From IMG/VR virus record IMGVR_UViG_3300022074_000267, positions 1 through 29,246 of that record: DNA of 29,246 bases; one strand, 5' to 3'. Numbering within the stretch: position 1 is the first letter of the stretch; the number at the start of each line of letters is the position of its first letter. Of this stretch, positions 1,073 to 25,591 are shown piece after piece. Source of the DNA: a virus. A program made the translations under genes and the position numbers. The notes under the pieces were generated by a model that saw only the letters and a list, made by a program, of their open reading frames with translations, had not been told where the DNA came from and made no database searches.

Positions 1073-2920
1073 TTAGGAACCAGATTCACCCAACAATCCA
1101 CGAACGATAACAAGACCGTACATATCAGGACGAACCATTTTCTTAGCGTAACGAGTCATAACACCTTTGCGAGGAACGAAGTCTTCTGGTCCAAAGATGG
1201 TAGGAGTTGTTTGCAGAGGCACGTATGGTGCATATACATAACCAGACTCAAGGAAAGAATTACCTTTACGTCCAACCAAGATAGCGTTACGTGGGAAGTA
1301 AGGATCAACAATGATGTCGAATTTACGGTTCAAAGAACCAGCCTTAACTGCACCGATGTCGCCTTTATCAGCGTCAGCAGTAACGTTCGCACGGAAACCA
1401 GCAGTGAATTCCAAGATGTTTGCAACTTCAGGAGAAACAACTACGAAGTTAGCACCACCACGCAAAGTCTTACGATGGATTTGTGCAGAAACGTCGTTGA
1501 TAGTTTCGATCAAAGTTTCGTACCATTCAGATACAGTACCAGTGAAGTCAGGAGCAGCAGAAGTTGCACCAAGTTCAGCACCAGTCAAGCGATCAACAAA
1601 CAAACCAGGTGAACGAGACCAGTAGTAAGTCGCAGCAGTTGCGCCATTTACAAGGTCAGCCAAGATTTCACGATCCAATTCTAGAGCGATTTGCTCAGAA
1701 AGGATAGAAGTCAATTCAACCTCAGCATCCAAGTTGTGGTAAGCGTTCAAGTCTTGACCCAATTCTGGAGTCCACTTTGCTTTCAACTTCTTGGTTTGTG
1801 CTGTGATAGCGGTTGAGTCAACCTTGATGTCGATCTCAGGAATATCTTCAGATCCTTCAAGTACCATTGAGAATGTGTCGATTGCGCCACCAGTTCCAGC
1901 AGAAGTAGCAGTATCTTTAACTGGATATTCGATGTTGTCTTTGGTAACACCAGCGCCAAGATTGGCTGCTGTGGTTAGTGTACAAGTTCCTTGAGTAACA
2001 ATGATAAGTCTAACACCATCTTTCGCATTACCATATGAAGCTTCTGCAGCTGTAATTTTACGAGTCAAACGACGAACTTGTTCTGAGTTAGAATCTGTAC
2101 AAGCAACACCAAGGATGCTGTTCAATGCCGGCATCAAAGGAGTGGTCAAACTAGTGTGTCCCGCGAGATCCAAGATAGAAATAGCGGACAAGTTATCAAA
2201 GTCAGCGTTTGGAAGTGCATCTTCGTCAATTTCAACCACGATAACACTCAAAGTTCCGTCAGTCTTAGACAACAGATCTACGTCGTATTCTAAGAGTTTA
2301 GCATTAGCTTCGCTAACTGCTCCATCTAGGACGAAAGTTGTTTTCATTTTAGCATTATTACCAGAAGAATCCAAAGCATTAGATCCAGTTGTTGGAGATG
2401 CATAAGCATAACCAGTTGAACCACCACGACCTGGACCAGAAAGATCAGATCCAAAAGTAGAATCAACAAGATCGACACCACCAATAACACCAGAACCAGT
2501 TTGAGCGGTACCGTAAATAGAAGTGTCCTTTGCGTTACCAAAGCGAGAGTTGACGTCATTGGCTTGGTTCCCAAGGTTACCTGAGAATGTGAAGTCCATG
2601 AAGAAGATCAATCCAGATGGAAGAGACATTGGTTGAACAGAAACCAAGTCGTTAGCAATCAATCCGGCGAATACACGACGAACGATTGGGAAAGCAACAG
2701 CGGCAAAACCTTCAACAGATCCAGCTGCTCCCATTCCACTAGACTCACGAAGTAATTCTCTTGCTTGGTTTTCAAGCAAACGAGCCATGTTGTGCTTGTC
2801 ATTGTCGCTAGACAAGCCTTCAAGAAGACCGGTTGCGGTCCACTTGTTCAAAAGAGCGGCACCTTCTTGTTGCAAGTTGCGGTTAACCATCCCTTCTGTA
2901 AGAGTTTCGATAATAGACAT
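1073..2920 (-). CDS. Major capsid protein, T4 gp23-like
   Basis: This is the shell protein of the head (HK97-type fold). GGAGA lies upstream of 2920. The protein has 615 residues, about 95 longer than T4 gp23 (521). The N-terminal propeptide contains NMARLLENQARELLRE, where L57-R-E59 fits the gp21 cleavage rule, close to the Glu65 site of T4. The next block, VEGFAAVAFPIVRRVFAGLI and NDLVSVQPMSLPSGLIFFMD, is the hallmark gp23 region. ELGQDLNAYHNLDAEVELTS and LSEQIALELDREIL are also gp23-like, as is the end RYAKKMVRPDMYGLVIVRGL. The extra length seems to lie between about 130 and 360, in the variable insertion region. A strong terminator follows. Confidence 0.97.
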   Translation of the reverse strand: MSIIETLTEGMVNRNLQQEGAALLNKWTATGLLEGLSSDNDKHNMARLLENQARELLRESSGMGAAGSVEGFAAVAFPIVRRVFAGLIANDLVSVQPMSLPSGLIFFMDFTFSGNLGNQANDVNSRFGNAKDTSIYGTAQTGSGVIGGVDLVDSTFGSDLSGPGRGGSTGYAYASPTTGSNALDSSGNNAKMKTTFVLDGAVSEANAKLLEYDVDLLSKTDGTLSVIVVEIDEDALPNADFDNLSAISILDLAGHTSLTTPLMPALNSILGVACTDSNSEQVRRLTRKITAAEASYGNAKDGVRLIIVTQGTCTLTTAANLGAGVTKDNIEYPVKDTATSAGTGGAIDTFSMVLEGSEDIPEIDIKVDSTAITAQTKKLKAKWTPELGQDLNAYHNLDAEVELTSILSEQIALELDREILADLVNGATAATYYWSRSPGLFVDRLTGAELGATSAAPDFTGTVSEWYETLIETINDVSAQIHRKTLRGGANFVVVSPEVANILEFTAGFRANVTADADKGDIGAVKAGSLNRKFDIIVDPYFPRNAILVGRKGNSFLESGYVYAPYVPLQTTPTIFGPEDFVPRKGVMTRYAKKMVRPDMYGLVIVRGLLGESGS

Positions 2921-2937: not shown

Positions 2938-4116
2938 TTATTTTTTTATGCCTGCAAGCTTCTGCATCTTCGCCAAGAATGGGTCAGCGCTTTGCTTGCT
3001 TTCGTTAATGTTTTGTCTCGAATTCAACATAGAACTTAAGTTCGAACGTCGATTGACGGACTCGCTAAGTGATTGTGGATCTCTTTTGCTGTTAGGCGTC
3101 GATCCCACTGTAGCTTTGAGCGTCTCATGAAGTTTTTTAGCTTCCTTCGGAGACTCCGCATTAGCAATGGCTTCGACAATTTTAGATTTTTGTCGCTCAT
3201 TCAGGGAGGCATCAGCTAGTGTGCGGTTTTGATATAAAAGTTTTGCGTTTGACAATAAAGACTCCTCAAGGTGGACTTCCAACTTGGTAAGGACGCGCTC
3301 TAATTGTGAGTTTTGTTGCGTCAGAGAATCTACTGTCTCGTGTAGTTCGTTAACTTGACCCATTAATTCTTCGTTTACGTCTTCGGACTCTTCTTCTGAG
3401 TCTTCGTCGTAAAGAACTTCGGCCATATCTGCATTGAATTTTTCTCTTGATCGGTTGTGTCTCCACACTCCTCCGAGAGCAGCAAGTTCAGGATCCTGAT
3501 CGATGTGCATGGCTTCTTCAAGAGCTTCGTCTTCTTCTTCAAGCATACTGAGGACTTCTTGCAGTTGAAGGTCGAGGTCATCATCTCCACCCGCATCATC
3601 TCCTCCGAGGTCCAAATCTCCACCCAGATCGTCTCCAGCAGCATCGTCAGGTGTGCCCATATCTAAGCCACCAAGGTCGTCTGTAGCGCCTTCTGCGTCT
3701 TGTGAGAGGTCAAGTGGTTCGGGATCAAGATCTCCGAAGTCAAGTTCAATTTCATCGTTTTCATCAAATGGAAGATTATCAAGCATTGCAGACATTTTGA
3801 CGTATACATCTTCTGAGCCTGGTCGAGAATCATAAGCGCCTGGAGCTTCGATGGTTGCTGATTCACCAGCTGGTGCAGCTCCACCCATCCCTGCAGCTTC
3901 TTCTTCTTGCATGATTTCATCTTCTGCTTCGGCAATCATTTCTTCTGCTCGTGTTGTAGCACCATCCATTTCAAGCATTTGATCAACCGCTTCTTTGATT
4001 TGCTTCGAGTACTTGTCAAGAACTGATTGTTCTGCATTTTTAATCGCTTGCTCTCTAAGTGCGGCGGCATCGGCAATTGCCTGTTCTAGCATGTTGGACA
4101 TTAAATCATCTCCCAT
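2938..4116 (-). CDS. Prohead core scaffold protein, T4 gp22-like
   Basis: The scaffold fills the prohead, shapes the capsid shell and is degraded by the gp21-like protease. The protein has 392 residues, strongly acidic. An N-terminal helix (MSNMLEQAIADAAALREQAI) is followed by an Asp/Glu-rich disordered middle, a low-complexity block near 145-185 (DLGGDLDLGGDDAGGD), a coiled coil near 250-300 (LHETVDSLTQQNSQLERVLT), and a C-terminus ending DPFLAKMQKLAGIKK, a common end for such scaffolds. It directly precedes the capsid gene, as in T4. The start could be 4116 (GGAG eleven bases upstream) or 4101 (MSNMLEQ, GGGAGA seven bases upstream); both are plausible. Confidence 0.87.
   Translation of the reverse strand: MGDDLMSNMLEQAIADAAALREQAIKNAEQSVLDKYSKQIKEAVDQMLEMDGATTRAEEMIAEAEDEIMQEEEAAGMGGAAPAGESATIEAPGAYDSRPGSEDVYVKMSAMLDNLPFDENDEIELDFGDLDPEPLDLSQDAEGATDDLGGLDMGTPDDAAGDDLGGDLDLGGDDAGGDDDLDLQLQEVLSMLEEEDEALEEAMHIDQDPELAALGGVWRHNRSREKFNADMAEVLYDEDSEEESEDVNEELMGQVNELHETVDSLTQQNSQLERVLTKLEVHLEESLLSNAKLLYQNRTLADASLNERQKSKIVEAIANAESPKEAKKLHETLKATVGSTPNSKRDPQSLSESVNRRSNLSSMLNSRQNINESKQSADPFLAKMQKLAGIKK
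3584..3636 (-). repeat. Dispersed repeat, copy in scaffold gene
   Basis: These 53 bases match the portal gene at 21185-21237 in 46 positions. They encode the same DLGGDLDLGGDDAGGD peptide, with mostly silent differences. Confidence 0.8.
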
Positions 4117-4132
4117 ATTTGTTTTTCTCCAA

Positions 4133-4148
4133 TAAATAGTGTAAATAG
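4133..4148 (-). promoter_or_regulatory. Candidate late promoter, doubled ACTATTTA box
   Basis: Minus-strand CTATTTACACTATTTATTGG has two copies of CTATTTA nine bases apart, between the terminator of the fiber gene and the scaffold gene start at 4116. Placement after a terminator and 17 bases before a start supports a promoter. Inferred. Confidence 0.55.
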
Positions 4149-4171
4149 ATTTTAAAGTACAAAAGAAGGCT

Positions 4172-4207
4172 TAAAAAGAAAAAACCCCCACACCAAAGGC
4201 ACGAGGG
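4172..4207 (-). terminator. Intrinsic terminator after LamG fiber gene
   Basis: On the minus strand CCCTCGTGCC pairs with GGTGTGGGGG through several G-U pairs around a TTT loop, followed by TTTTTTCTTTTT. It lies 28 bases after the stop at 4235. Confidence 0.87.
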
Positions 4208-4234
4208 CATCTATTCAGATAGAATTAACTGAAA

Positions 4235-5446
4235 TTATTGCAAAGCAGCTGTTTGAATAGACATCTGGCGATCAGATTGAGCAGCAATAGCAGCAACCTG
4301 AGATTCAGTCAAAGCACCATGGGCGATTTGTACAGAGTCAAGGGAGAACTGTCCTCCTAGACCATTGTAAGAAGATCCATAGGAAGATCTTCCAAGTCCA
4401 AACCAGACATTTCCATTTAATTTGTCAAGAACATGGAAAGATTTTTGCAAAGCTTCTCCGCCCTTTACACCATCGATGAATATTTTTAGATCGTATTTAT
4501 CAGTGTAACCTGGACTCAAGCCATAAGTTATGGCGCAATGTTGAAATTGTCCAAGCGCGAAAGGAATACTAGACTTGGCTTGTGGAGTACCTGTCCACAA
4601 GTTTCCAATGATCGGGTGGAATTGTAGGAACCCATCACTTGTTTTACCCGCAGCGAGCCTAAGTTCTTTGTTGCTGTTAAAGCGACCTCCAAAGTAGTTG
4701 TGGCCGGTGCTGAGCTCCGACTCCGCAGCAACCCAGAAAGATAGAGTGAACTCTTTAGGATCTATAGAATTACCAGAATAATTCATGAGTCCTTCGATGT
4801 TCAAATCTACCTTTGTTGCACCACGATTAGCAAACGAAGAATCGGTCTGCGAGAAGATTCCATTTGTTATGGTAGCGCTCTTGAACAAATTACTAGCAGC
4901 AGTTGGTAGTTCTTCGATGAAAGTACCAGAAATTACTTGGCCTCCACCACCGCCGCCATTACCACCTTCACCTTCTTCACCTTCTTCACCTTCAGATTCA
5001 ACAATATAAGAGTCTCCTTCAGTAAGCCATCTTAATGTTCCATCAGACATGATCGTTAAAAATCTACCTTCATCATCACTACGATAAACAGGGACATCAT
5101 CGAAGTGATATAATTTTCTAGTATTGTCTGTGACGGCTAAGTCAAAACTATGAACATCTTCTACATTCTCTGAAGACAAAAAAGAAACTCGAACGGTTTG
5201 TTGTGATCCTGTTTTTGATTCAAAGTAATACTTTTGATAAATTACGTCTGCGATAAAATCACTAATAACGCCATCTGTGTCGTGAATCATGGTCCAACTA
5301 CTTCCGTCGAAACCGTAGATTTTTATGCTAACTCCACGAAGATTAACCGACATTTTGAAAGTATGATCTGCAGGGGGAACAAACCCATCTGCATATTGAG
5401 GTATAGCTGGGTATGCTATTTTTCTTAATAATTTAGATTTTTTCAT
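4235..5446 (-). CDS. Fiber or appendage protein with C-terminal LamG-like domain
   Basis: The protein has 403 residues with AAGGAGA upstream. Residues 1-145 form a beta-rich N-terminal part ending in EGRFLTIMSDGTLRWLTEG, again the fiber GxxLxIxxxGxLxWL motif. A flexible linker of Glu and Gly follows (about 150-170: EGEEGEEGEGG, GGGGGG). Residues about 195-395 read as a LamG/concanavalin-like jelly roll: EFTLSFWVAAESE, LGQFQHCAITYGL, DLKIFIDGVKGGEA, NVWFGLGRSSYGSS and SLDSVQIAHGALTESQVAAI. Such domains bind carbohydrates or surface proteins, so a receptor-binding role is plausible. A terminator follows. Confidence 0.82.
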   Translation of the reverse strand: MKKSKLLRKIAYPAIPQYADGFVPPADHTFKMSVNLRGVSIKIYGFDGSSWTMIHDTDGVISDFIADVIYQKYYFESKTGSQQTVRVSFLSSENVEDVHSFDLAVTDNTRKLYHFDDVPVYRSDDEGRFLTIMSDGTLRWLTEGDSYIVESEGEEGEEGEGGNGGGGGGQVISGTFIEELPTAASNLFKSATITNGIFSQTDSSFANRGATKVDLNIEGLMNYSGNSIDPKEFTLSFWVAAESELSTGHNYFGGRFNSNKELRLAAGKTSDGFLQFHPIIGNLWTGTPQAKSSIPFALGQFQHCAITYGLSPGYTDKYDLKIFIDGVKGGEALQKSFHVLDKLNGNVWFGLGRSSYGSSYNGLGGQFSLDSVQIAHGALTESQVAAIAAQSDRQMSIQTAALQ

Positions 5447-5969: not shown

Positions 5970-6001
5970 AAAAAAGGCCCCGAAGATTTCTCCTCGGGGC
6001 C
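5970..6001 (-). terminator. Intrinsic terminator after giant fiber gene
   Basis: On the minus strand GGCCCCGA pairs with TCGGGGCC around a ten-base loop, followed directly by TTTTTTAC. It separates the giant fiber gene from the 159-residue gene. Confidence 0.92.
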
Positions 6002-6047
6002 AATGTGAGCAATGCTCAATAGCATTGAGGATTAGCTCAAGATGTTA

Positions 6048-9000
6048 TTACATCATGTAGTATACATCACCGTGCTCAATGAAAGTAACAGAAGATCCTG
6101 GGAACAACTTAACTTTACCATCACCTTCGCCATCGATAGTCTTACCTGCAGGAGCAGTGAATTCCATCGCTTCAGTAGAAGCAGCAGCCAAAGAAACTGT
6201 TACTTTGTAGTTTGGTGAAAGAACTGGGAGTACAGCAAGTGAATCCGCACCATTGTTTTGAATGATATAAAGTGGATCATCAGCAGTCAAAGTCAATGAA
6301 GCAGAAGCAACAGCATTAGTGATAAAGCTAACTTTTACTTCGCCATCAATCATTTTAACTTGCTTAGCTTCGAGTTCGTTCTCTTTTGCAGTCGCACGAG
6401 CGATTTCGCTAGTTAAGTTACTAGAAATCGTAGTATCAGCAGCCTCAAAAGCAACTTGAAGAGCATCATCCGCAGCTTCAAATGAAGCAGTTATAGCAAT
6501 CTCACCAGCAGCACGAGCAGCAACTTCGTCTTCAAGATCACCTTCCAACTCAGTCATATCAGCCAAGAAAGAAGCTTCCATCGCAGAGTCAGCAGCTTGG
6601 AATGCAGCAGTTACAACAGCATCAGCAGCAGCCATTTCACCTTGAAGTGTAGACTTCTCAGAAGCCAACTCAGAGCGGATAGCAGCACGATCAGTAGATG
6701 CATCGCCAAAAGATACTACGTTAGCAGCTTCGTGCGCAGACAAAGATGCTTCAACAGCGTCAACTTGACCTTCAAGTTCAGTCTTAGCAGTAGCGATATC
6801 ACCAGCAACAGTAGCAGCGAAGTTTTCATCGTCACCGATTGCAGCAGCCAATTCATTCAATGTATCCAACAATGCAGGTGCAGAATCTACAAGACTTGCA
6901 ACAGCAGCGTCAGTGTGAGCAATAGCTTCACCTTTAGCAGTAGCGATATCAGCAGTCAACTGAGTGTTCATACCGATACGAGCTTGTTCTGCAGCTACGA
7001 AATCAGCATTAGTAGCAGCGATCTCTGCATCAAGAGCAGCAGTGAAAGAATTTTCCAATGAAGTGATTTCAGCATCAGTATAAGCCTTAGCGTCAACTAG
7101 AGCTTGAGCTTCAGCAGCTTGTGCACGAGCAATTTCAGAAACCAAATCTGCAGCGATTGCATCACGACCAGCACCAGCAGAAATGAAGTCAGCGTTTGTA
7201 GCAGCAATTTCTGCATCCAAACCAGCTTGAACACCAGCAACAGCAGCAAGCATAGCAGTATTTTCAGCAGAAACTGCGGCAATACGAGCATCTTCTTCAG
7301 CTTGCAATGCATCAGCCAAAGACTCTTCTGCAGCTTCAGCACGTTGTTGTTCAGCAGAAATAGCGTTAGTGTTTACAAGTTCAGCAGCTTGTGCTCGAGA
7401 AATTTCAGAAGCCAAAGCAGCGTTGTTAGAAACTACATAGTCATCATGCTTACCTTCGATACGAGCTTCTTCGCCTTCACGAACAGCAGTCTCAGCATTA
7501 GCAGCAGCTTCAACAGCAGCTTCCAAAGTAGAGATTTCTGAATCAGTGTGAGCATTTGCAGAAGACAATGTTGAAACATCACCAGCAGCAAATTCGCCAC
7601 GAATAGCAGCTTCTTGTCCTTCAGCACGAGTCTTTTCAGTCAAGATATCTGCAGACAAAGCATCATCAGCATTTGAACGAGAAAGAGCTTCAGCACTTAC
7701 AGCAGCTTCACGAGCAGATTGTTCAGCAGAAACTGCGTTAGTCAATACAAGCTCAGCAGCTTCAGCACGAGTTTTTTCTACAAGTACATCTGCATCAATC
7801 TCAGCTTGCATCTCAGCCTTAAGAGCATCATCAGCAGTAACAAATTCACCACGGATTGCAGCTTCTTGACCAAGAGCGCGATTCTTTTCGGTAAGAATAT
7901 CAGCAGCCAAGCCAGATTCTGCAGTAGAAGCACGAGAAGTCTCTGCAGAGATTGCAGCTGCGTTTGCAGCGATATCAGAAGTGTGAGTACCATCTTGAAC
8001 TTTAAGAGCGTCGATTTCAGCAGTGAAAGCATCTTCCATTGATTGATCTGCAGCAGCAAACTCTGAACGGATCGCAGCGCGATCAGAAGTTGCAGAACCA
8101 AAACGAGTGTTGGTAGAAGCAATTTCAGCATCCAAACCAGATTGAAGGCCTACTTCAGCAGCAAGAGCACGAGTTTCTTCAGCAGCAAGAGCAGCGTCGT
8201 TAGAAGCTACGTATGCATCCAAAGAAGATTGAACACCAGAAACAGCAGCAATACGTGCAGTTTGTTCATCAGAATCAGCTTGCTCCAAAGCAGACTTAGC
8301 AGCATTGAAATCCAAAACGTGAGAAGCAAAAGCAGCATCGTTTTCAGTATCAACAGAGTTGATCAAATCAACGATTTCTTTGAATGAATCAGCATCAGCA
8401 GAAGAAGCATTCAAGATAGCATCGATACGACCCTTCTCAGTTGCAATCTCACCAGAGAGACCTGCTTCAGCAGCAAGTGCACGATCTTCTTCATCTTGCA
8501 ATGCATCAGCCAAAGAACCTTCAGCAGCTTCAGCACGAACGTTTTCTGCAGTGATTGCAGCAGCGTTTGCTTGTTCAGCAGCACGAGCAGTAGCAGCTTC
8601 AGTATTCAAAGAAGATTGAAGACCAGCTTCTGCAGCTTCAGCACGAGTCTTTTCAACAAGTACATCTGCATCGATCTCAGCTTGCATTTCGCCCTTAAGG
8701 GAAGCGTCAGCAGCAGCGAATTCACCACGGATCAAAGTTTCTTGACCTTCAGCACGAGATTGTTCAGCAGCAATATCGCCTTCCAACTCTGCTTCTTTAC
8801 CAGTAGCACGAGTTACTTCGGAAGCCAAGTCTGCAGAGTTTTGATCTACATCACCTTGAAGAGCAGCTTCGGCAGCACGAGCAGTTGTAGCTTCAGAAGA
8901 AATTGCAGCAGCATTAGCTTGTTCTGCAGCGCGAGCAGTTCCAGCTTCAGAAGAAATTGCAGCAGCGTTTGCTTGTTCAGCAGCTTCTGCACGACCTTTT

Positions 9001-14226: not shown

Positions 14227-14850
14227 TTAGTCTCCAAGAATCTTCTTAAATAGATTGTCAATATTATTTTCTTTTTGTTCTCGCAATCTTGTCGAGAACT
14301 TGAATGCTTTCTTCGATCCTTCTCCGGGATATACATAAGCATCGGGAGTTGATGGCTCTGATACGATATCAAAGCAAATAAGTTGGAAGTCATCTTCAAC
14401 AATGGTTTCGCCCATTGACTCTTTGACTGATCCAAGTCCTCGAGATGAGATTCCAAGTTTCACACCAGCGTTAATCAAATCCTTAAGGATACGACCAGAA
14501 GGAGTATCAAGGACTTTGATTTTGCCCATAACGTCTTTGCCTTCCCACCAGCACTTAGTGACCATGTGAGATACGTTCTTAAGGTTGATGACTGAATCAT
14601 CTGGGTGATCAAGTTCGCCGCATGCACGATTGTCGTTGACGATAGTCATGTAATTGTTCATTTCTCTTTTAAGAACTTTCTCTGGATATTTACGTCCGTT
14701 GCCGTTTTTCTTGTCGGCAGTTTGAATACGACCGGTGAGGTACATTGCACCCTCTTCTTTGATCTCTCGCTTTTCACGTTCGGTCAATAGATCTTGACAC
14801 ATGCCGTCTGGGCATAGTGCATGATATTCTCTTAGTAGTTTTTTAGACAT
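14227..14850 (-). CDS. Prohead maturation protease, T4 gp21-like
   Basis: This protease sits in the prohead core, activates itself and cleaves scaffold, capsid and internal proteins after (L/I)-x-E, clearing the head for DNA. The protein has 207 residues (T4 gp21: 212). Expected motifs are present: NGRKYPEKVL, CGELDHP with the catalytic His82, and LGISSRGLGS with the nucleophile Ser135 or Ser136, followed by ICFDIVSEPSTPDA. The start overlaps the preceding stop (TAATG). The gene sits between cargo-like tagged genes and a small partner, whereas in T4 it is directly followed by the scaffold and capsid genes, which here lie 10 kb downstream. Confidence 0.94.
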   Translation of the reverse strand: MSKKLLREYHALCPDGMCQDLLTEREKREIKEEGAMYLTGRIQTADKKNGNGRKYPEKVLKREMNNYMTIVNDNRACGELDHPDDSVINLKNVSHMVTKCWWEGKDVMGKIKVLDTPSGRILKDLINAGVKLGISSRGLGSVKESMGETIVEDDFQLICFDIVSEPSTPDAYVYPGEGSKKAFKFSTRLREQKENNIDNLFKKILGD

Positions 14851-15347
14851 TAGCTTGGGACCTCTTCAACGACTCCTTTGATCATAAACGGTTCAATAGG
14901 TTGAAAGTTTTCTTGAGGAATCTTGTTTGAGTTAAATGGTTTTCCGCCTTCCGGAATAGCAATAGTAACATGTGGAAATTTTACTTTCTTGTGGATTGGT
15001 GCTGGTGGCTCAACCATTGCAGCCATAGCTTTATCAGACATTCCAATTGATACAACTTTTAATTGTATTTCTCCGCCGACTGGATAATCAGCACTGAGAT
15101 CATGCTTCCCTTTCGGGTGAACGATTGGACTAAACGGTACAATAGTCATATGGTGAGGCAAAGGAGCCCCAGCTTTTGTATTAAAAACGAATCCTTCAGG
15201 GACTCCCATTTTCTCTGCTGCCTGCTTAAGGGCTTGTACGCTTGGTTCATCAAGAACAACACCAGAATATGCTACTCCACCTTCGTTAAGAACAGAATTC
15301 AGCTCTTCTTTAATAATTTGTTTTAGTTGTTCATTTGTAATTTTCAT
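14850..15347 (-). CDS. 2H phosphoesterase-like protein with class B tag (possible anti-CBASS Acb1-type or RNA-end enzyme)
   Basis: The protein has 165 residues with GGAGAA upstream. The tag ends KQIIKEELNSVLNE, with L-N-E at 20-22 fitting the gp21 cleavage rule. The body has two HxT motifs, HHMTIVPF (His66, Thr68) and FPHVTIAI (His126, Thr128), 60 residues apart. This is the defining active-site pattern of the 2H phosphoesterase superfamily, which cuts 2',3'-cyclic or 2'-5'/3'-5' phosphodiester bonds. YSGVVLDEPS and GGKPFNSNKI flank it. T4 gp57B (Acb1) is a 2H enzyme that destroys CBASS cyclic nucleotide signals, so a similar defence-blocking role is possible. An RNA 2',3'-cyclic phosphodiesterase is the main alternative. 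It lies just upstream of the prohead protease with a TAATG overlap. Confidence 0.7.
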   Translation of the reverse strand: MKITNEQLKQIIKEELNSVLNEGGVAYSGVVLDEPSVQALKQAAEKMGVPEGFVFNTKAGAPLPHHMTIVPFSPIVHPKGKHDLSADYPVGGEIQLKVVSIGMSDKAMAAMVEPPAPIHKKVKFPHVTIAIPEGGKPFNSNKIPQENFQPIEPFMIKGVVEEVPS

Positions 15348-15442: not shown

Positions 15443-15772
15443 TTAATCACCAACATGCTCACCCCCTGATCTTGATGATAGTCTTAGGCCGAAATCATCG
15501 ACCAAGACCGAAATTAAATAACTTGTTCCAGCCGATAAACAGCCAAGCAAGAACGCATTCACAAATGAACGCTCGAAACTAAATAGTTCAGTGTACGGAG
15601 AAAGACATGAAATAAAGACTCCAACCCAAAAACCCATACACAGAGGGCAATGCCATAAAGTATTCCATTTTTTAGTATAGTCCTTTGAAGGTCGGATGTC
15701 TTCAAATATCTTTCCATGTATAATAATAAAAGTCATGCCGTAAGCGGCAAGAATAAAGTGGAGTGTTTCCAT
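15443..15772 (-). CDS. DUF1360-like small membrane protein
   Basis: The protein has 109 residues. Hydrophobic stretches lie near 4-20 (LHFILAAYGMTFIIIHG), 46-60 (MGFWVGVFISCLSPY) and 72-92 (NAFLLGCLSAGTSYLISVLVD). The central WHCPLCMGFWVG is the CPxCxGFWVG signature I associate with DUF1360 membrane proteins, found in phages and bacteria without known function. The start abuts the preceding stop (TAAATG). A strong terminator follows at 15365-15393, so this gene closes the GNAT-like transcription unit. A role in the membrane during infection is possible, but nothing in the sequence shows which. Confidence 0.75.
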   Translation of the reverse strand: METLHFILAAYGMTFIIIHGKIFEDIRPSKDYTKKWNTLWHCPLCMGFWVGVFISCLSPYTELFSFERSFVNAFLLGCLSAGTSYLISVLVDDFGLRLSSRSGGEHVGD

Positions 15773-16471
15773 TTAAAGTCCGCGATATCTTACGTTGAAA
15801 TCTTCTTTAGATCTGTTACTTAACATGTTTTCAAAGGCACCTTTCATCCTTTTCAACTTCTTGACAAAAGATTCGTGATTAGACTTCATGCTTTCATATT
15901 GTGCTTTTGAGTCTGATAGGTTTTTCTTTTTAAAGCTATGGTGAGTTGAAGGAAATTTGAACGGCATATCGCAATCATCGTCCGGATCTTGCGTTTGGGA
16001 TATGTAATCAAACTCATCATTTCCGTCTTTTGTTTTTCTCTTCTCATACTCGCCTGATTTTTCAATCTTGTCCCATGCACGTTCCGCCTTTTGTTTTGTG
16101 CCGGTGACGTGATCTGAGGTCAAACCTTTGTCTTCTTTGCCCAACACATAAAAAGCGCAATCCATTAATAGTTTTTGAAAGCCTTGACCTTCATAGTCCT
16201 TATGTGTGTGAACTGTATTGATTTGAAATGTCTCGGGGATACACGGTTCGGAAGTGGCTGTTTTAGTATTTTCAAATGAGATTGCACCAACTATAACGGT
16301 GTCCAAGAACAACCTGCTGGTCTGTCGCGATTCATCGGAAGCTGGTTTGTAAATAACTATTCTTTGATAGTTGGCCCCATCACCTTTATGGTAAAGACAT
16401 AGCCCTTCTGAGTGTGCGCTTTCGTTCAAAAGAAACTTTCGAAAGTTTTTGTGTAGTTTGTAAGATTTCAT
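15773..16471 (-). CDS. GNAT-like acetyltransferase family protein with diverged tag, paralog 3
   Basis: The protein has 232 residues from 16471. The frame is open 14 codons further, but MKSYKLHKNFRKFLLNE mirrors the relatives, with L-N-E at 15-17 exactly where the other tags have their cleavage signature. The domain shows VGAISFENT, EPCIPETFQIN, the acetyl-CoA loop-like YEGQGFQKLL at 93-102, and the signature GLTSDHVTGT...RAWDKIEKS...YEKRKTKDG...FDY, PDDDCD, HHSF. The C-terminal ~60 residues are basic and helical. It follows paralog 2 with one base between stop and start. Function in acetyl transfer is inferred from the motif; packaging from the tag. Confidence 0.77.
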   Translation of the reverse strand: MKSYKLHKNFRKFLLNESAHSEGLCLYHKGDGANYQRIVIYKPASDESRQTSRLFLDTVIVGAISFENTKTATSEPCIPETFQINTVHTHKDYEGQGFQKLLMDCAFYVLGKEDKGLTSDHVTGTKQKAERAWDKIEKSGEYEKRKTKDGNDEFDYISQTQDPDDDCDMPFKFPSTHHSFKKKNLSDSKAQYESMKSNHESFVKKLKRMKGAFENMLSNRSKEDFNVRYRGL

Positions 16472-16472
16472 A

Positions 16473-17186
16473 TCAATAACTCGCCATATCGTATTCATCG
16501 CTAAAAAGGTCATTTGATTGACTCTTAAGATTTTTTAAGAATCTTTGTACTGCTGAAGGGTCGCCAATGCTATCTAAATAGTCCATATGATTAGCTTCAA
16601 GTTTCATGAGTACATCGTGAGTATTTCCGGTATCTTTCTTGATGAAAGAATGATCTGTTGCATTTGAGTCAGGATCAAAAATATCCAAACTGCAATCATC
16701 ATCTAGATCATCGGGGGTGTCGTTGTAATAATCAAACTTTTCGTTACCGGCTTTTGTTTTTTGCTTCTCGTAGTTTGGATCCGATTCTATCTTAGACCAT
16801 CTCTTTCTAGCACCACTCTTGGACCCGGTCTGTCGGTCTGATGTTAGTCCATGTCCCATAGATTGTGAGATGAAAAAAGCTAGATCATACAAAAGAGGTC
16901 CAAGTCCGATTCCGGCGAAGTCAGAGTCTCTATATGATGTTCCGACTTGCAATGTTTTAGGTATACAAGGATCTTCGGTCTCAATGCACTCTATACCTCC
17001 GATAACTCTAGCAAGTTTTCTACCACGAGGCTTTTCATCTATAATATAAAGAATTATTTTAAACTCTGGAGAGTTTCTAGAATAGAAAAACATGTTGATT
17101 GGTTTTCCTTGTATTTCGGTCACGGATGCTCGAGATTCATTGATGAACTTTCGCCATCCTTCCATTATAAGTTTGTGATTGTTCAT
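16473..17186 (-). CDS. GNAT-like acetyltransferase family protein with class A tag, paralog 2
   Basis: The protein has 237 residues. The tag MNNHKLIMEGWRKFINE ends in I-N-E at 15-17, a match to the T4 gp21 cleavage rule. The domain then follows almost at once: ARVIGGIEC, PCIPKTLQVGTS, the acetyl-CoA loop-like AGIGLGPLLY at 91-100, and the family signature GLTSDRQTGS...RWSKIESD...YEKQKTKAG...FDY, DDLDDDC and DHSF. It is a compact version of paralog 1 without the coiled-coil insert. The start overlaps the upstream stop (ATGA). The acetyltransferase call rests on the loop motif and domain order; the catalytic residue cannot be assigned by eye. Head packaging is inferred. Confidence 0.78.
   Translation of the reverse strand: MNNHKLIMEGWRKFINESRASVTEIQGKPINMFFYSRNSPEFKIILYIIDEKPRGRKLARVIGGIECIETEDPCIPKTLQVGTSYRDSDFAGIGLGPLLYDLAFFISQSMGHGLTSDRQTGSKSGARKRWSKIESDPNYEKQKTKAGNEKFDYYNDTPDDLDDDCSLDIFDPDSNATDHSFIKKDTGNTHDVLMKLEANHMDYLDSIGDPSAVQRFLKNLKSQSNDLFSDEYDMASY
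17158..17186 (-). repeat. Tag-coding repeat, copy 3
   Basis: The first 29 bases of GNAT-like paralog 2 differ from copy 2 at one position (Arg to Lys codon). They encode MNNHKLIME. Confidence 0.85.
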
Positions 17187-18211
17187 GTGCGCGTCCTATT
17201 CGCATAGCTTTTTCCAAATACTCGGAACGCTTTATCGTGAAGTTCTGATGCCCTATATGATCTACCATTAGTTTGAAAATACTCGTCTGCAAGTGTGAGA
17301 TCTTTGTATACCTCAACAGACTTGTCATTGACTCCAAAGCTATGAGATGTGACCGCACCTCTATCTGTAAAATCTTCGCAATCATCTTGCCTGTCATCTG
17401 GTGTTCGATTACCAGTGTAATCAAACTCATCACTACCGCTAGGAGTAGTCCTCTTGTAGAACTCTGGATCTGAACGGATAGCGAGCCACCTCTTTTCTGC
17501 GTCAATGCTCGTTCCAGACGTATGATCTGATGATATCCCACCGTCTCTAAAATTAAGTTTTGCATAAGCTGCGGCTAGTCGATACAATATCGACCCAAAG
17601 CCTTGACGTTGAAACTTTCCAGCAACGGCTGCGAATTTTACCTGAAGTGTGTTTGGAATACAGGGCCCAAACATAGTCGCTATGGATATCATCCCTATAA
17701 CCATCGGAAGTCCATCACTATCAATGACTTCTGTGTGATATAGGACTAGAGTCATAGAATCATCCATGCTTATACTCGCCAGAGCTAGTTTCGAATCTGC
17801 AGAAGGCTTGCCCCTTTGTTTTTCGATAGCAGCTCTTCGAGCTTCCCTTTCTTTACGTTCAGCCTCTTCTTTTTGTTTCTTAATCTCTTCTACTTTTGAA
17901 TTTAAATATTTAAACTTCTTCCAACTATAAAATTCACCAGTCGAACTCATCATGTTTGGTCTTACCAAAAACTCTTCGCCAAGTCTATGTTTATCAATGA
18001 TTTGAGCCAATTCATCTAAACTAGTAGTTTTTAGCTTCTTGTATCTATCGCTGCCTGTGAAGTATGGTACTTTATAATAGAAGTAGTCATATTTTTGAGT
18101 AAACTTATCATAGTTACGGTTTGGCGTTAAGTTTGAAGGGTTCGAACCACCTCTTGTTTGTGCTCGAAAGAAATCTCTCCATCCTTCCATTATAAGTCTG
18201 TGATTGTTCAT
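17183..18211 (-). CDS. GNAT-like acetyltransferase family protein with class A tag, paralog 1
   Basis: The protein has 342 residues. The tag MNNHRLIMEGWRDFF is followed by RAQ rather than the (L/I)-x-E found at residue 17 in its relatives, so the distal cleavage site is lost; I-M-E at 7-9 remains. Residues 23-100 are of unknown type, 105-135 is a charged coiled coil (EEAERKEREARRAAIE), and 160-300 is the shared domain. In it, PCIPNTLQV, the acetyl-CoA loop-like QRQGFG at 201-206 and the family signature SSDHTSGTS...RWLAI...DEFDY...DDC can be seen. GNAT enzymes transfer acetyl groups from acetyl-CoA to amines; the substrate cannot be guessed. The gene overlaps the previous stop (ATGA). Packaging into the head is inferred from the tag. 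Confidence 0.75.
   Translation of the reverse strand: MNNHRLIMEGWRDFFRAQTRGGSNPSNLTPNRNYDKFTQKYDYFYYKVPYFTGSDRYKKLKTTSLDELAQIIDKHRLGEEFLVRPNMMSSTGEFYSWKKFKYLNSKVEEIKKQKEEAERKEREARRAAIEKQRGKPSADSKLALASISMDDSMTLVLYHTEVIDSDGLPMVIGMISIATMFGPCIPNTLQVKFAAVAGKFQRQGFGSILYRLAAAYAKLNFRDGGISSDHTSGTSIDAEKRWLAIRSDPEFYKRTTPSGSDEFDYTGNRTPDDRQDDCEDFTDRGAVTSHSFGVNDKSVEVYKDLTLADEYFQTNGRSYRASELHDKAFRVFGKSYANRTRT
18183..18211 (-). repeat. Tag-coding repeat, copy 2
   Basis: The first 29 bases of GNAT-like paralog 1 differ from copy 1 by one base and from copy 3 by one base. They encode MNNHRLIME. Confidence 0.85.
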
Positions 18212-19413
18212 AGACGTCGTCCCGGGTTTAGCAAGTTTATTGAAGGTCTCGAAATCCCTCCAAAACGACGGGCGGCATAATCTTTGATAATTGCATCTAA
18301 TTGATAAATTGTATCAAATAATTGCTTCTCGTACTTCTCGCCTCTAGCTTTTCTTCTAAGGTAGTTCATTTTAGTATCAACTTGGTTGATAAAATTATTG
18401 GTATTCTCGTTTGATCTCCATTTTTTTCGATCTTCTTTTGACATAGAAAACCATTTTTTCTTGAATCGATAATCGTTCTTAAGTTGTTGTTTTAGCCTGG
18501 ATGCCGTTATAGATTTTGCTGTTCTAACAAATCCTACAGCATAAGCATGCTGTTCTATTTCTTGAGAGTAGTACGTTATTATCTTGCTAGGCACTGTTTC
18601 TTGTGCGTCTTTTCCTTTTTGGCTGTCTATTACATACTGCATTGCTTTGAGCCATTTTTCCCATCTTTTGAGAACTCTTTCTTTACGCTCTTTGGTGTCG
18701 TCTCTTTGGAAGGCTATGTCCATTATAAGGCTAGCTAATAGCTCAAAGGGGTCTTTAGATTTGTCTGAAAGCTTCCCTCCTATTGCGACAAACGACATGT
18801 TTAAAACGTCTTGCATAGGCTCTCCGCGCAATCCCTGAGCTATGTGCTCAACTTCGTGTTGAGTTACTCCCTGTAATACGTGCTTAAAGTCATACATCCA
18901 TGAAAAATTATCTTTTGTATTCCATGGCTCAATAAAGCCACTTACTTCTATTTTTATAGTCAACTCTGTTCCATCTGTGCTCATTGATCCGCCTGTAGAT
19001 CCTATATAAAACCTAGAGGATCGTCTATTTGCTTGGGTGACTTCTAGTTTAAAACTTTTTAATTTCTTAAACAAGGTTGACCTAGATTTAAAGATTTTAA
19101 AGTACCTTTTTGTACTTGAAGATTTATTAATATACTTGTTCATGTGCCTTGTAAACCACATATATTCAGGCCCAGCAAGCTTTATAAAATCATCATATCC
19201 GGGCATTGTTTTTTTAATCTCATGATATGCTTCTTTATTTGGCGGATATGGTTGACTCGCAGCGTTTACAACTCTTTTATCTTCCATCATTTCTCTTATG
19301 ATGTTGGTAAAGTATTGAAGAATGCCTCCGGTCAAGATGCCTGACTCTTGATTGCCGGTATCTTCGCTAAGGAACTGCCTCCAGCCTTCCATTATAAGTC
19401 TGTGATTATTCAT
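18208..19413 (-). CDS. Putative zinc metallopeptidase with class A N-terminal tag (possible internal head protein)
   Basis: The protein has 401 residues from 19413. This start is preferred over a longer frame because GGGAGA lies upstream and because the N-terminus MNNHRLIMEGWRQFLSE matches two following genes. Residues 15-17 (L-S-E) fit the (L/I)-x-E cleavage rule of T4 gp21. VTQHEVEHIAQGL carries a zincin HExxH motif at 186-190, and QEIEQHAYA near 284-292 could give the third zinc-ligand Glu, as in other HExxH peptidases. The remainder is basic and helical. T4 packages and injects tagged proteins such as Alt, so a packaged peptidase acting in the infected cell is a reasonable hypothesis. Substrate unknown; peptidase activity is inferred from the motif. 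Confidence 0.78.
   Translation of the reverse strand: MNNHRLIMEGWRQFLSEDTGNQESGILTGGILQYFTNIIREMMEDKRVVNAASQPYPPNKEAYHEIKKTMPGYDDFIKLAGPEYMWFTRHMNKYINKSSSTKRYFKIFKSRSTLFKKLKSFKLEVTQANRRSSRFYIGSTGGSMSTDGTELTIKIEVSGFIEPWNTKDNFSWMYDFKHVLQGVTQHEVEHIAQGLRGEPMQDVLNMSFVAIGGKLSDKSKDPFELLASLIMDIAFQRDDTKERKERVLKRWEKWLKAMQYVIDSQKGKDAQETVPSKIITYYSQEIEQHAYAVGFVRTAKSITASRLKQQLKNDYRFKKKWFSMSKEDRKKWRSNENTNNFINQVDTKMNYLRRKARGEKYEKQLFDTIYQLDAIIKDYAARRFGGISRPSINLLNPGRRL
19385..19413 (-). repeat. Tag-coding repeat, copy 1
   Basis: The first 29 bases of the metallopeptidase-like gene differ from copy 2 (18183-18211) at one position. They encode MNNHRLIME. The downstream coding sequences are unrelated in protein, so the identity is limited to the tag. 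Confidence 0.85.
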
Positions 19414-20032
19414 AGGTGTATCTCCCATACATATATGGTGCGAATAAGTTGTGTTGTCTGATTGAACCCTTCTCTTCTTCGTGAGGTACTTCTCCAAGTT
19501 CTGTGGAGAACTCTCCGTCTGGTGAAAGTAAATGGTCATCTTGCATATCATCGTATCCTGTGCGACCAGACATCATTGGCTCTTCTGATTCCATCCACTC
19601 AGAAATCTTCATAAGTGTAATTTCGACAGTCTTCTTTCCTTCTTGTAACTTGCCCTCTAGAGACCCATAGATATTACCACCTTGGATAGAATCAATCTCG
19701 ATTAAGCCGTTTCTTCTTAAGTACTCAAGTAAACGGGCTTCTGCTCCATATACCAAATCAGATAAGGTTTCTTTTGCAAATGCAACGATCTTCTTGTCTC
19801 CTTGTTTGATAACGATGTCGATATCTTTATGATCCATAATCATCAAGTCGCCGTTGATGGCTGATCTGAGTTTTAGCTTTGCTTCGATTCTATCTTTCTC
19901 GACAACTTCTATCTTTACTCCACCATCATCAGGGACCTCTCCAGAATCTGCTTTGACGATCTTAACTTTGATTGTAGATCCTTCTGTCTCTTCGACTTCT
20001 TCTTCACCAGTTATTGTAACATTAATCGGCAT
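19406..20032 (-). CDS. Unknown acidic protein in head gene cluster
   Basis: The protein has 208 residues. The N-terminal half is beta-rich and acidic (MPINVTITGEEEVEETEGS, VKIVKADSGEV, VKIEVVEKDRIEAKLKLRS). The middle, VYGAEARLLEYLRRNGLIEI, looks helical. The C-terminal 50 residues are acidic and probably disordered, ending in FAPYMYGRYTYE. No domain is recognised. The start at 20032 has AGGTAAAGAGAA upstream and overlaps the previous gene. The stop at 19406 overlaps the metallopeptidase-like gene. Its place between portal and tagged cargo-like genes suggests a head or core protein, without direct evidence. Confidence 0.75.
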   Translation of the reverse strand: MPINVTITGEEEVEETEGSTIKVKIVKADSGEVPDDGGVKIEVVEKDRIEAKLKLRSAINGDLMIMDHKDIDIVIKQGDKKIVAFAKETLSDLVYGAEARLLEYLRRNGLIEIDSIQGGNIYGSLEGKLQEGKKTVEITLMKISEWMESEEPMMSGRTGYDDMQDDHLLSPDGEFSTELGEVPHEEEKGSIRQHNLFAPYMYGRYTYE

Positions 20033-24920: not shown

Positions 24921-25226
24921 TTATCTCCCTTGTAAGATGTCCTGAATAAAGTTGATCAATGCTTCTTTCGGAGCAATTGTGGAATCATAATTATCATACG
25001 GATCTTCTTCAGCAATCTCTTCTTTAAGTTGTTCAATTTTCATTTGAAGCTCTTCGTCGCTGTAGCTACTAAGGCGACTAAGCATTCCTTCGTCTCGAGC
25101 ATCTTCGTAATCACTTATGGACCACAGCTCTTGTGGAATTTGTCCTTGAAAACGATCTGACTCATTCATAATAGCTTCAAGTTCTTCTTTAATAATTCTT
25201 TTTAATGTTTGTTTATTGAGTTTCAT
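24921..25226 (-). CDS. Small acidic protein with class B N-terminal tag (possible internal head protein)
   Basis: The protein has 101 residues from the start at 25226, which overlaps the preceding stop (ATGA) and has GGAG ten bases upstream. The N-terminus contains KRIIKEELEAIMNE ending at residue 22. It is a basic-then-acidic amphipathic helix very like the first 22 residues of the 2H-phosphoesterase-like protein at 14850-15347. The rest is acidic (many Asp/Glu, for example KIEQLKEEIAEEDPYD) with no recognisable domain. The M-N-E at the tag end is close to, but not exactly, the (L/I)-x-E site of T4 gp21. A capsid-targeting role is a hypothesis; otherwise this is a protein of unknown function next to the packaging genes. 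Confidence 0.7.
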   Translation of the reverse strand: MKLNKQTLKRIIKEELEAIMNESDRFQGQIPQELWSISDYEDARDEGMLSRLSSYSDEELQMKIEQLKEEIAEEDPYDNYDSTIAPKEALINFIQDILQGR

Positions 25227-25591
25227 TTGTTTGGTCTCCAACCTGATTTCCATCTTTCTTCTCGCCCTTCAACCCACTGAATATAACACTTGTTGCAACA
25301 ACCAAATTTCGTCATATATAAATCATCGACGGATTTGAATGAATACGTGTTGCATGTCGGACATGAACGCTTTGATTCTCTATTAAGTAGTTCTTTTGAG
25401 ATTAAAACCCCATCCAAGTCTTCTTTCTCGCTCTCGGATTTATCGTGTCGATAGTTGGACTTTAGTTCACTAAGGTACTGTTCTTCCTTATCGTCATCCC
25501 ATTGCGACTTGGGGTTCACAACTGCTTCTTGTCCATACTTTTCGGCGATCGCCTTTTCTACTTTAATTGCATAATTTGGATCTTTACTCAT
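25223..25591 (-). CDS. Conserved-looking zinc-ribbon protein of unknown function
   Basis: The protein has 122 residues. The N-terminal half is charged and helical. The C-terminal part carries CPTC, then about 15 residues later CCNKCYIQWVEGREERW, so four cysteines can form a zinc ribbon of the form CxxC...CxxC. I recall similar CPxC...CxxCYxQWVEGRExRW proteins in T4-like cyanophages, but no function is known to me. It is coupled to its neighbours by ATGA overlaps at both ends and has little recognisable ribosome binding site of its own, so it is probably translated by coupling. It lies between the putative lysis genes and the terminase region. Confidence 0.75.
   Translation of the reverse strand: MSKDPNYAIKVEKAIAEKYGQEAVVNPKSQWDDDKEEQYLSELKSNYRHDKSESEKEDLDGVLISKELLNRESKRSCPTCNTYSFKSVDDLYMTKFGCCNKCYIQWVEGREERWKSGWRPNK

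Follow-up and report, generated by a model that had tools for sequence, protein, structure and literature searches.

What would an enzyme of the 2H phosphoesterase superfamily be doing among the head genes of a phage? The question is raised by a gene in a 29,246-base virus record (IMG/VR IMGVR_UViG_3300022074_000267), which was analysed over its whole length and is called the window here; the virus is a marine T4-like virus of bacteria. The original prediction held that this gene encodes a 2H phosphoesterase with a possible capsid-targeting tag, and that the enzyme could have a role like that of T4 Acb1, which destroys CBASS signals.

The gene and its neighbours

The predicted open reading frame (ORF) at 14850-15347 is real. 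It lies on the minus strand (15347 to 14850), starts with ATG and is a complete gene for a tag and a 2H phosphoesterase, 165 amino acids in all, as seen from the ORF list, its translation and the full-length homologues in the loci that we label L001-L005 (76-90% identity to the window protein).

The next gene downstream (14227-14850, minus strand) encodes a gp21-type prohead protease (Peptidase_S77, PF03420, E=2.6e-32), and its ATG shares one base with the stop codon of the 2H gene (TAATG). Directly upstream, at 15443-15772 on the same strand, is a gene for a DUF1360-like membrane protein, which is assigned from synteny and a weak match to PF07098 (E=0.068). This gene order is kept in L001, L003 and L005, as well as in one kinase-only locus. 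In the crAss-like phage Bcn23 (L027, 4953-5854), an untagged 2H homologue precedes a DUF1360 gene, a type of neighbour that it shares with the window gene. The window further encodes a gp23-type major capsid protein (1073-2920, minus strand; PF07068, E=1.1e-75), in which LRE|S at residue 57 lies immediately ahead of the conserved body. Lying among head genes, the 2H gene has a location that suits a protein made late and loaded, but not an inhibitor of host defence that is made early.

The 2H domain and its relatives

Residues 24-165 (14853-15278, minus strand) form a 2H phosphoesterase domain of the CNPase/CPD type. There are two catalytic HxT motifs, H66-M67-T68 (15144-15152) and H126-V127-T128 (14964-14972), with the predicted spacing of exactly 60 residues. 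A third conserved motif, KPxxSN (14925-14942), is probably a substrate contact, judging from its invariant alignment columns. In an alignment of 43 homologues, which are 29-90% identical to the window protein, the invariant residues are H66, T68, G102, A109, H126, T128, K136, S140 and N141; at this range of identity, the HxT pairs are therefore not due to chance.

The AlphaFold2 model of residues 24-165 has a mean pLDDT of 92.3. The first 2H strand covers residues 25-32 and the motif strands cover residues 66-71 and 126-132, so that one HxT lies on a strand in each lobe of a bilobal sheet; structure prediction, which had been proposed as a check, thus finds the 2H fold. When the model is compared with the PDB, the best fold match is the catalytic domain of vertebrate CNPase (Z 13.6, rmsd 2.8, 137 residues), followed by the kinase-CPD of fungal tRNA ligase (Z 10.8), Acb1 (7t27, Z 7.6) and LigT (Z 6.1). 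The confident model, the CNPase-like fold and the invariant HxT pairs together bear out the identity of the protein as a 2H phosphoesterase.

All 43 family members match PF08302 (tRNA_lig_CPD), with a best E-value of 4.6e-7. The window protein itself scores 16.9 bits, under the Pfam gathering score of 23, and the homologous 2H domains of two fusion members exceed this cut-off (L042 with 25.7 and L054 with 26.1 bits). No match to the window protein was found in PHROGs or NCBIfam, and searches of PDB sequences with the single sequence and with a profile returned no relative of it; the Myb matches of the family profile in the PDB are chance. A first contig scan for the 2H domain gave no relatives, and a profile-guided search of IMG/VR gave 92 2H relatives, with 80 loci kept. 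A match in Pseudomonas vB_PQ1 (H8) was dropped, because it runs antisense to genes annotated there and has no HxT motifs in its frame.

Given the shared superfamily, the protein could be an Acb1-like nuclease that is packaged and breaks down the cyclic oligonucleotides of CBASS. Acb1 does have the same HxT tetrad, and 7t27 is among the structural matches. However, the proposed comparison with Acb1 and LigT places both behind CNPase, Acb1 by 6 Z units, and T4 gp57B, taken from the T4 genome, reaches only 1.9 bits and an hhalign probability of 0.4% with the family profile. The C-terminus of our predicted model (residue 165) aligns with Acb1 residue 136. The ligand-binding residues of Acb1 include the lid at 145-152, W147 and E141 (PMC9117128); because the model ends ahead of these, they have no counterpart in it. 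Furthermore, the fusions and neighbours of the 2H family are RNA-repair enzymes, as described below. The window protein and Acb1 have the 2H fold superfamily in common, but not the family, and we consider the anti-CBASS role of the original prediction to be quite unlikely.

Among relatives outside the tagged group, the 2H domain is fused to an AAA_33 (polynucleotide-kinase-type) kinase, to HAD_SAK_1, which is of the Swiss Army Knife RNA repair phosphatase type, or to a PolyA_pol (CCA-adding-type) head domain. The 2H domain and the PNK-type kinase are fused in L042 and L098; in L003 they are adjacent and separately tagged, with the kinase directly downstream. The window has no tagged kinase beside its 2H gene. 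The L003 kinase matches AAA_33 (E=5.5e-13), and the nearest structures to its model (pLDDT 88.9) are polynucleotide kinases (mammalian PNKP with Z 13.9, Clostridium 13.3 and T4 12.6), with O-phosphoseryl-tRNA kinase tied at Z 13.6 and zeta toxins at 12.7. Polynucleotide kinase is the best reading, though not the sole one.

An RNA ligase is encoded in all seven kinase-2H contigs tested, by coordinates 5-10 kb away in six of them. Jumbo phages often carry RNA ligases, so this co-occurrence is supportive but not conclusive. No RNA ligase was found in nine tagged-2H or tag-bearing contigs, all of which are partial. RtcB was found in none of 17 contigs and KptA/Tpt1 in only one of the 17, and hence neither the RtcB route nor the Trl1-Tpt1 route is generally supported. 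In a separate arrangement, the 2H domain of L041 (5881-12384) opens a frame of more than 2,100 amino acids with matches to an ATP-dependent DNA ligase, DUF5824 and a TFIIS zinc ribbon.

These associations also bear on what the enzyme would act upon. One alternative is that the packaged enzyme clears small 2',3'-cyclic nucleotides or ADP-ribose 1'',2''-cyclic phosphate, which are damage-derived signals, and does not act on RNA ends. The nearest fold, CNPase, acts on 2',3'-cNMP, and it has been proposed that such 2H enzymes clear compounds of this sort, which may be alarm signals (PMC7824862). The repeated PNK-type and CCA-adding-type fusions and the RNA ligases on the same contigs point instead to polymeric RNA ends, and the single KptA/Tpt1 contig also speaks against this alternative, which we regard as unlikely. 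It has also been proposed, for the 2H domains of packaged polyvalent proteins, that they have RNase or nucleotide-degrading roles, because they were never seen with RNA ligases (PMC5512222). By analogy, the 2H protein might be a Usb1-like RNase, injected as an effector to trim or cut host RNA; but members of the window's 2H family are found together with RNA ligases, kinases and HAD domains of the SAK type, and we give this idea very little credence. Healing of RNA ends that carry 2',3'-cyclic phosphates, and not an anti-CBASS activity, is the best reading of the 2H domain, and a 2',3'-cyclic phosphate, whether on RNA or on a nucleotide, is its likely substrate.

Two exchangeable tags

When IMG/VR was scanned with the entire window protein, the matches were of two classes: full-length relatives in L001-L005, and many loci that match the first 22-36 residues only, where this N-terminus is joined to unrelated bodies. 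The protein is therefore composed of a tag and an enzyme domain. The first 22 residues, tag I (MKITNEQLKQIIKEELNSVLNE, 15282-15347, minus strand), are a predicted capsid-targeting sequence, given that the same tag is found on unrelated bodies, that it is helical in the model (residues 5-20) and that LxE is enriched at its end. The tag was originally predicted to end in L-N-E, and this end forms part of a predicted prohead-protease cut site, E22|G23 (V-L-N-E|G, 15279-15284), which lies 2-3 residues ahead of the first 2H strand. At such motifs, prohead proteases of the T4 type cleave on the C-terminal side of Glu (PMC5694885, PMC9026906), and in T4 IPIII an Asp at position 10 blocks the cut (PMC9026906).

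Tag I recurs on hundreds of otherwise unrelated ORFs and so is not a product of chance. A regular-expression census of the fetched loci gave 301 distinct tagged ORFs; their bodies make up 230 unrelated clusters, of which 199 have a single member. In 156 of the 230 cluster representatives, [LIVMF]xE follows the conserved KEE at a distance of 3-5 residues, compared with 31±5 in shuffles where residues 2-13 after KEE were permuted. The 2H homologue of L038 is without a clean LxE at the end of its tag (IQAEMKKN). A second tag-I protein is encoded in the window itself at 24921-25253 on the minus strand (MKLNKQTLKRIIKEELEAIMNE|S, tag from 25226), as found from the ORF list and the tag census.

Of 38 tag contigs that are at least 50 kb long, 24 encode an S77 protease, compared with 3 of 30 random control contigs retrieved through an arbitrary 15-mer (p=6e-6; restricting the controls to those of 48 kb and more gives p=0.005). 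In fourteen of the 38, neither S77 nor gp23 was matched, and these were treated as fragments; the tag itself is in none of the 30 controls. With its mobility, the LxE enrichment and the adjoining gp21-type protease gene, the capsid-targeting reading of the tag is well supported computationally.

One exact DNA pattern of the tag has at least 120 matches in viral contigs, compared with two in 84,980 cellular genomes. Of the two cellular matches, L394 has tags of both types and appears to be a phage contig that was mis-binned, and L395 has about ten tandem ORFs with MKITKRQLRRIIKE-type tags within 8 kb of a 306-kb contig, which is binned as a Methylococcaceae MAG and is probably a phage contig. 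A tblastn search of 50,697 GenBank phage records returned one weak match only; the tag I family is apparently absent from GenBank phages, a provisional result since tblastn with short peptides is not very sensitive. The tag core KQIIKEEL was not found in the literature searched.

A further tag, tag II, has the sequence (K)LIMENWRKFLxE, and its F-L-x-E end resembles the T4 capsid-targeting sequence (CTS), MKTYQEFIAE. The 2H domain carries tag I in the window, L001, L003, L005 and L038, and tag II, ending in FLLTE or YLLTE, in L039 and L040. Among 71 other 2H loci, one has a tag-I match and none has a tag-II match. The PNK-like kinase family (37 loci) has tag I in L357-L360, tag II in, e.g. L361, L363, L365, L376 and L383, and neither tag in L369-L371, L374 and L384. 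The slot between the DUF1360-like and S77 genes likewise holds different cargoes: a tagged 2H protein in the window and L005, a tagged 2H protein with a tag-II protein of 336 amino acids in L001, a tagged 2H protein with a tagged kinase in L003, and a tagged kinase alone in L214.

These exchanges matter for another explanation of the tag, in which it is a helix for assembly or core binding, carried by small head-morphogenesis factors that are not retained in the virion. Many tagged ORFs are indeed short, with an assignable domain in few of them, and the core proteins of T4 are likewise cut by gp21 and mostly expelled (PMC9026906). Against this, the cargoes include 2H and PNK-like kinase enzymes with intact catalytic motifs, the tags are swapped between copies of a cargo, and the predicted cut site is immediately ahead of a folded domain. 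We therefore find it very unlikely that the tag serves only in assembly.

The window has several other ORFs with such N-termini, all on the minus strand. Three successive ORFs at 15773-18211 resemble one another in their bodies, and each has tag II or a tag-II-like sequence at its N-terminus. The ORF and site lists give the first of these (15773-16513) a tag-II-like start, MKSYKLHKNFRKFLLNE|S, from about 16471, and the second (16473-17186) is a tag-II protein, MNNHKLIMEGWRKFINE|S, also recorded in the tag list; the bodies of both are like those of the neighbouring GNAT-like ORFs. The third (17183-18211) has a tag-II-like start without LxE, MNNHRLIMEGWRDFF, and a GNAT-like body (PF00583, E=0.0029, below the cut-off). 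These three proteins may be packaged acetyltransferases. The tag-II protein at 18208-19551, MNNHRLIMEGWRQFLSE|D, has its tag at about 19413 in the ORF, tag and site lists. It has an HEVEHIAQG motif and matches no Pfam family; its body is a possible zinc metallopeptidase.

Similar N-termini and helices were noticed elsewhere. In L003, just ahead of the cargo slot (3849-5090), an ORF without a Pfam match has a protein-kinase-like DIHxxQFGRN...DLG and the N-terminus MKIRIIKNKKQLNEE. An ORF of 648 amino acids in L093 (through 6001-6192) has a HAD-like start, a C-terminal 2H domain and internal tag-like helices ending in LxE (LIREELLSE, VIKRLLSE), and might possibly be a packaged polyprotein that is cut by the prohead protease. 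In T4 (L396, 11592-12411), acb1 (57B) adjoins ipI, and its N-terminus, MMEFKDFSTG, resembles that of ipI, MKTFKEFTST.

A proposed injected enzyme and known systems

The computational support consists of the fold of the model, the conserved active site, the RNA-repair links of the family, the mobility of the tag, the cut motif and the protease operon. From these we infer packaging, cleavage, ejection and substrate, as follows. The N-terminal 22-residue amphipathic helix would act as a capsid-targeting sequence that binds the prohead core, so that the tagged 2H enzyme is enclosed in the head. The gp21-type protease from the next gene would then cut after V-L-N-E (E22|G23) and release the 2H domain, and the freed enzyme would enter the host along with the phage DNA. 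There it could open the 2',3'-cyclic phosphates on tRNA or rRNA cut by host anticodon RNases or other metal-independent RNases, and RNA healing would begin ahead of any phage gene expression. In related phages, the tagged PNK-like kinase in the same slot may supply the 5'-end healing step.

Packaging of the 2H protein, taken by itself, appears quite probable. The reading as a whole, i.e. a virion-packaged RNA end-healing enzyme that is loaded by a capsid-targeting tag, is in our judgement somewhat favoured by the evidence. More broadly, tag I and the T4-CTS-like tag II may form a general capsid-loading code of a group of uncultured marine T4-like phages for hundreds of proteins, including an injected, split pair of CPD-type 2H enzyme and PNK-like kinase that repairs host-cut RNA before expression begins; for this generalization we see the balance as even.

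The Pnkp/Rnl1 response of T4 depends on new synthesis. If the proposal is true, the repair of host-cut tRNA could start at DNA entry, earlier than this response. T4 also injects protective proteins from its head. If true, a tag that can be recognised, exchanged and cleaved off would allow the proteins injected by uncultured phages to be predicted from sequence alone.

Several known systems resemble parts of this proposal. The CPD of fungal tRNA ligase (PF08302, PDB 6u05) also has two HxT motifs, its profile is matched by the whole family, and distant family members share its coupling to a PNK-type kinase. In contrast, the window protein is stand-alone, short, capsid-tagged and below the family cut-off, and no ligase was found in its own partial contig. 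Vertebrate CNPase has the closest solved fold, but the identity is 14%, and the window domain is shorter (142 versus about 208 residues), phage-encoded and tagged. Acb1 (T4 gp57B, FBB1) is likewise a phage-encoded member of the 2H superfamily with the HxT tetrad, but it has no detectable sequence relation to the window protein, which is without the C-terminal lid and is encoded in a head operon.

Packaged CTS cargo is already known from T4, whose internal proteins consist of a cleaved CTS propeptide of 10-20 residues and a variable cargo (PMC9026906, PMC3012670). IPI-III and Alt of T4 share with our system a short N-terminal peptide ending in hydrophobic-x-E, a variable cargo and a gp21-type protease in the genome; compared with the T4 CTS, tag I is a 22-residue KxxLKQIIKEEL helix with many cargo types. 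In the literature searched, we found neither a distinct tag family of this kind nor an RNA-healing 2H enzyme that has a capsid tag and a kinase partner bearing its own tag. Phage 2H domains themselves have been described, with RNA repair proposed for those of jumbo phages (PMC7824862) and injection predicted for those of polyvalent proteins (PMC5512222). Whereas the latter are reported never to occur with RNA ligases, the 2H domain of the window is of a probable RNA-repair subtype and carries a predicted cleavable capsid tag.
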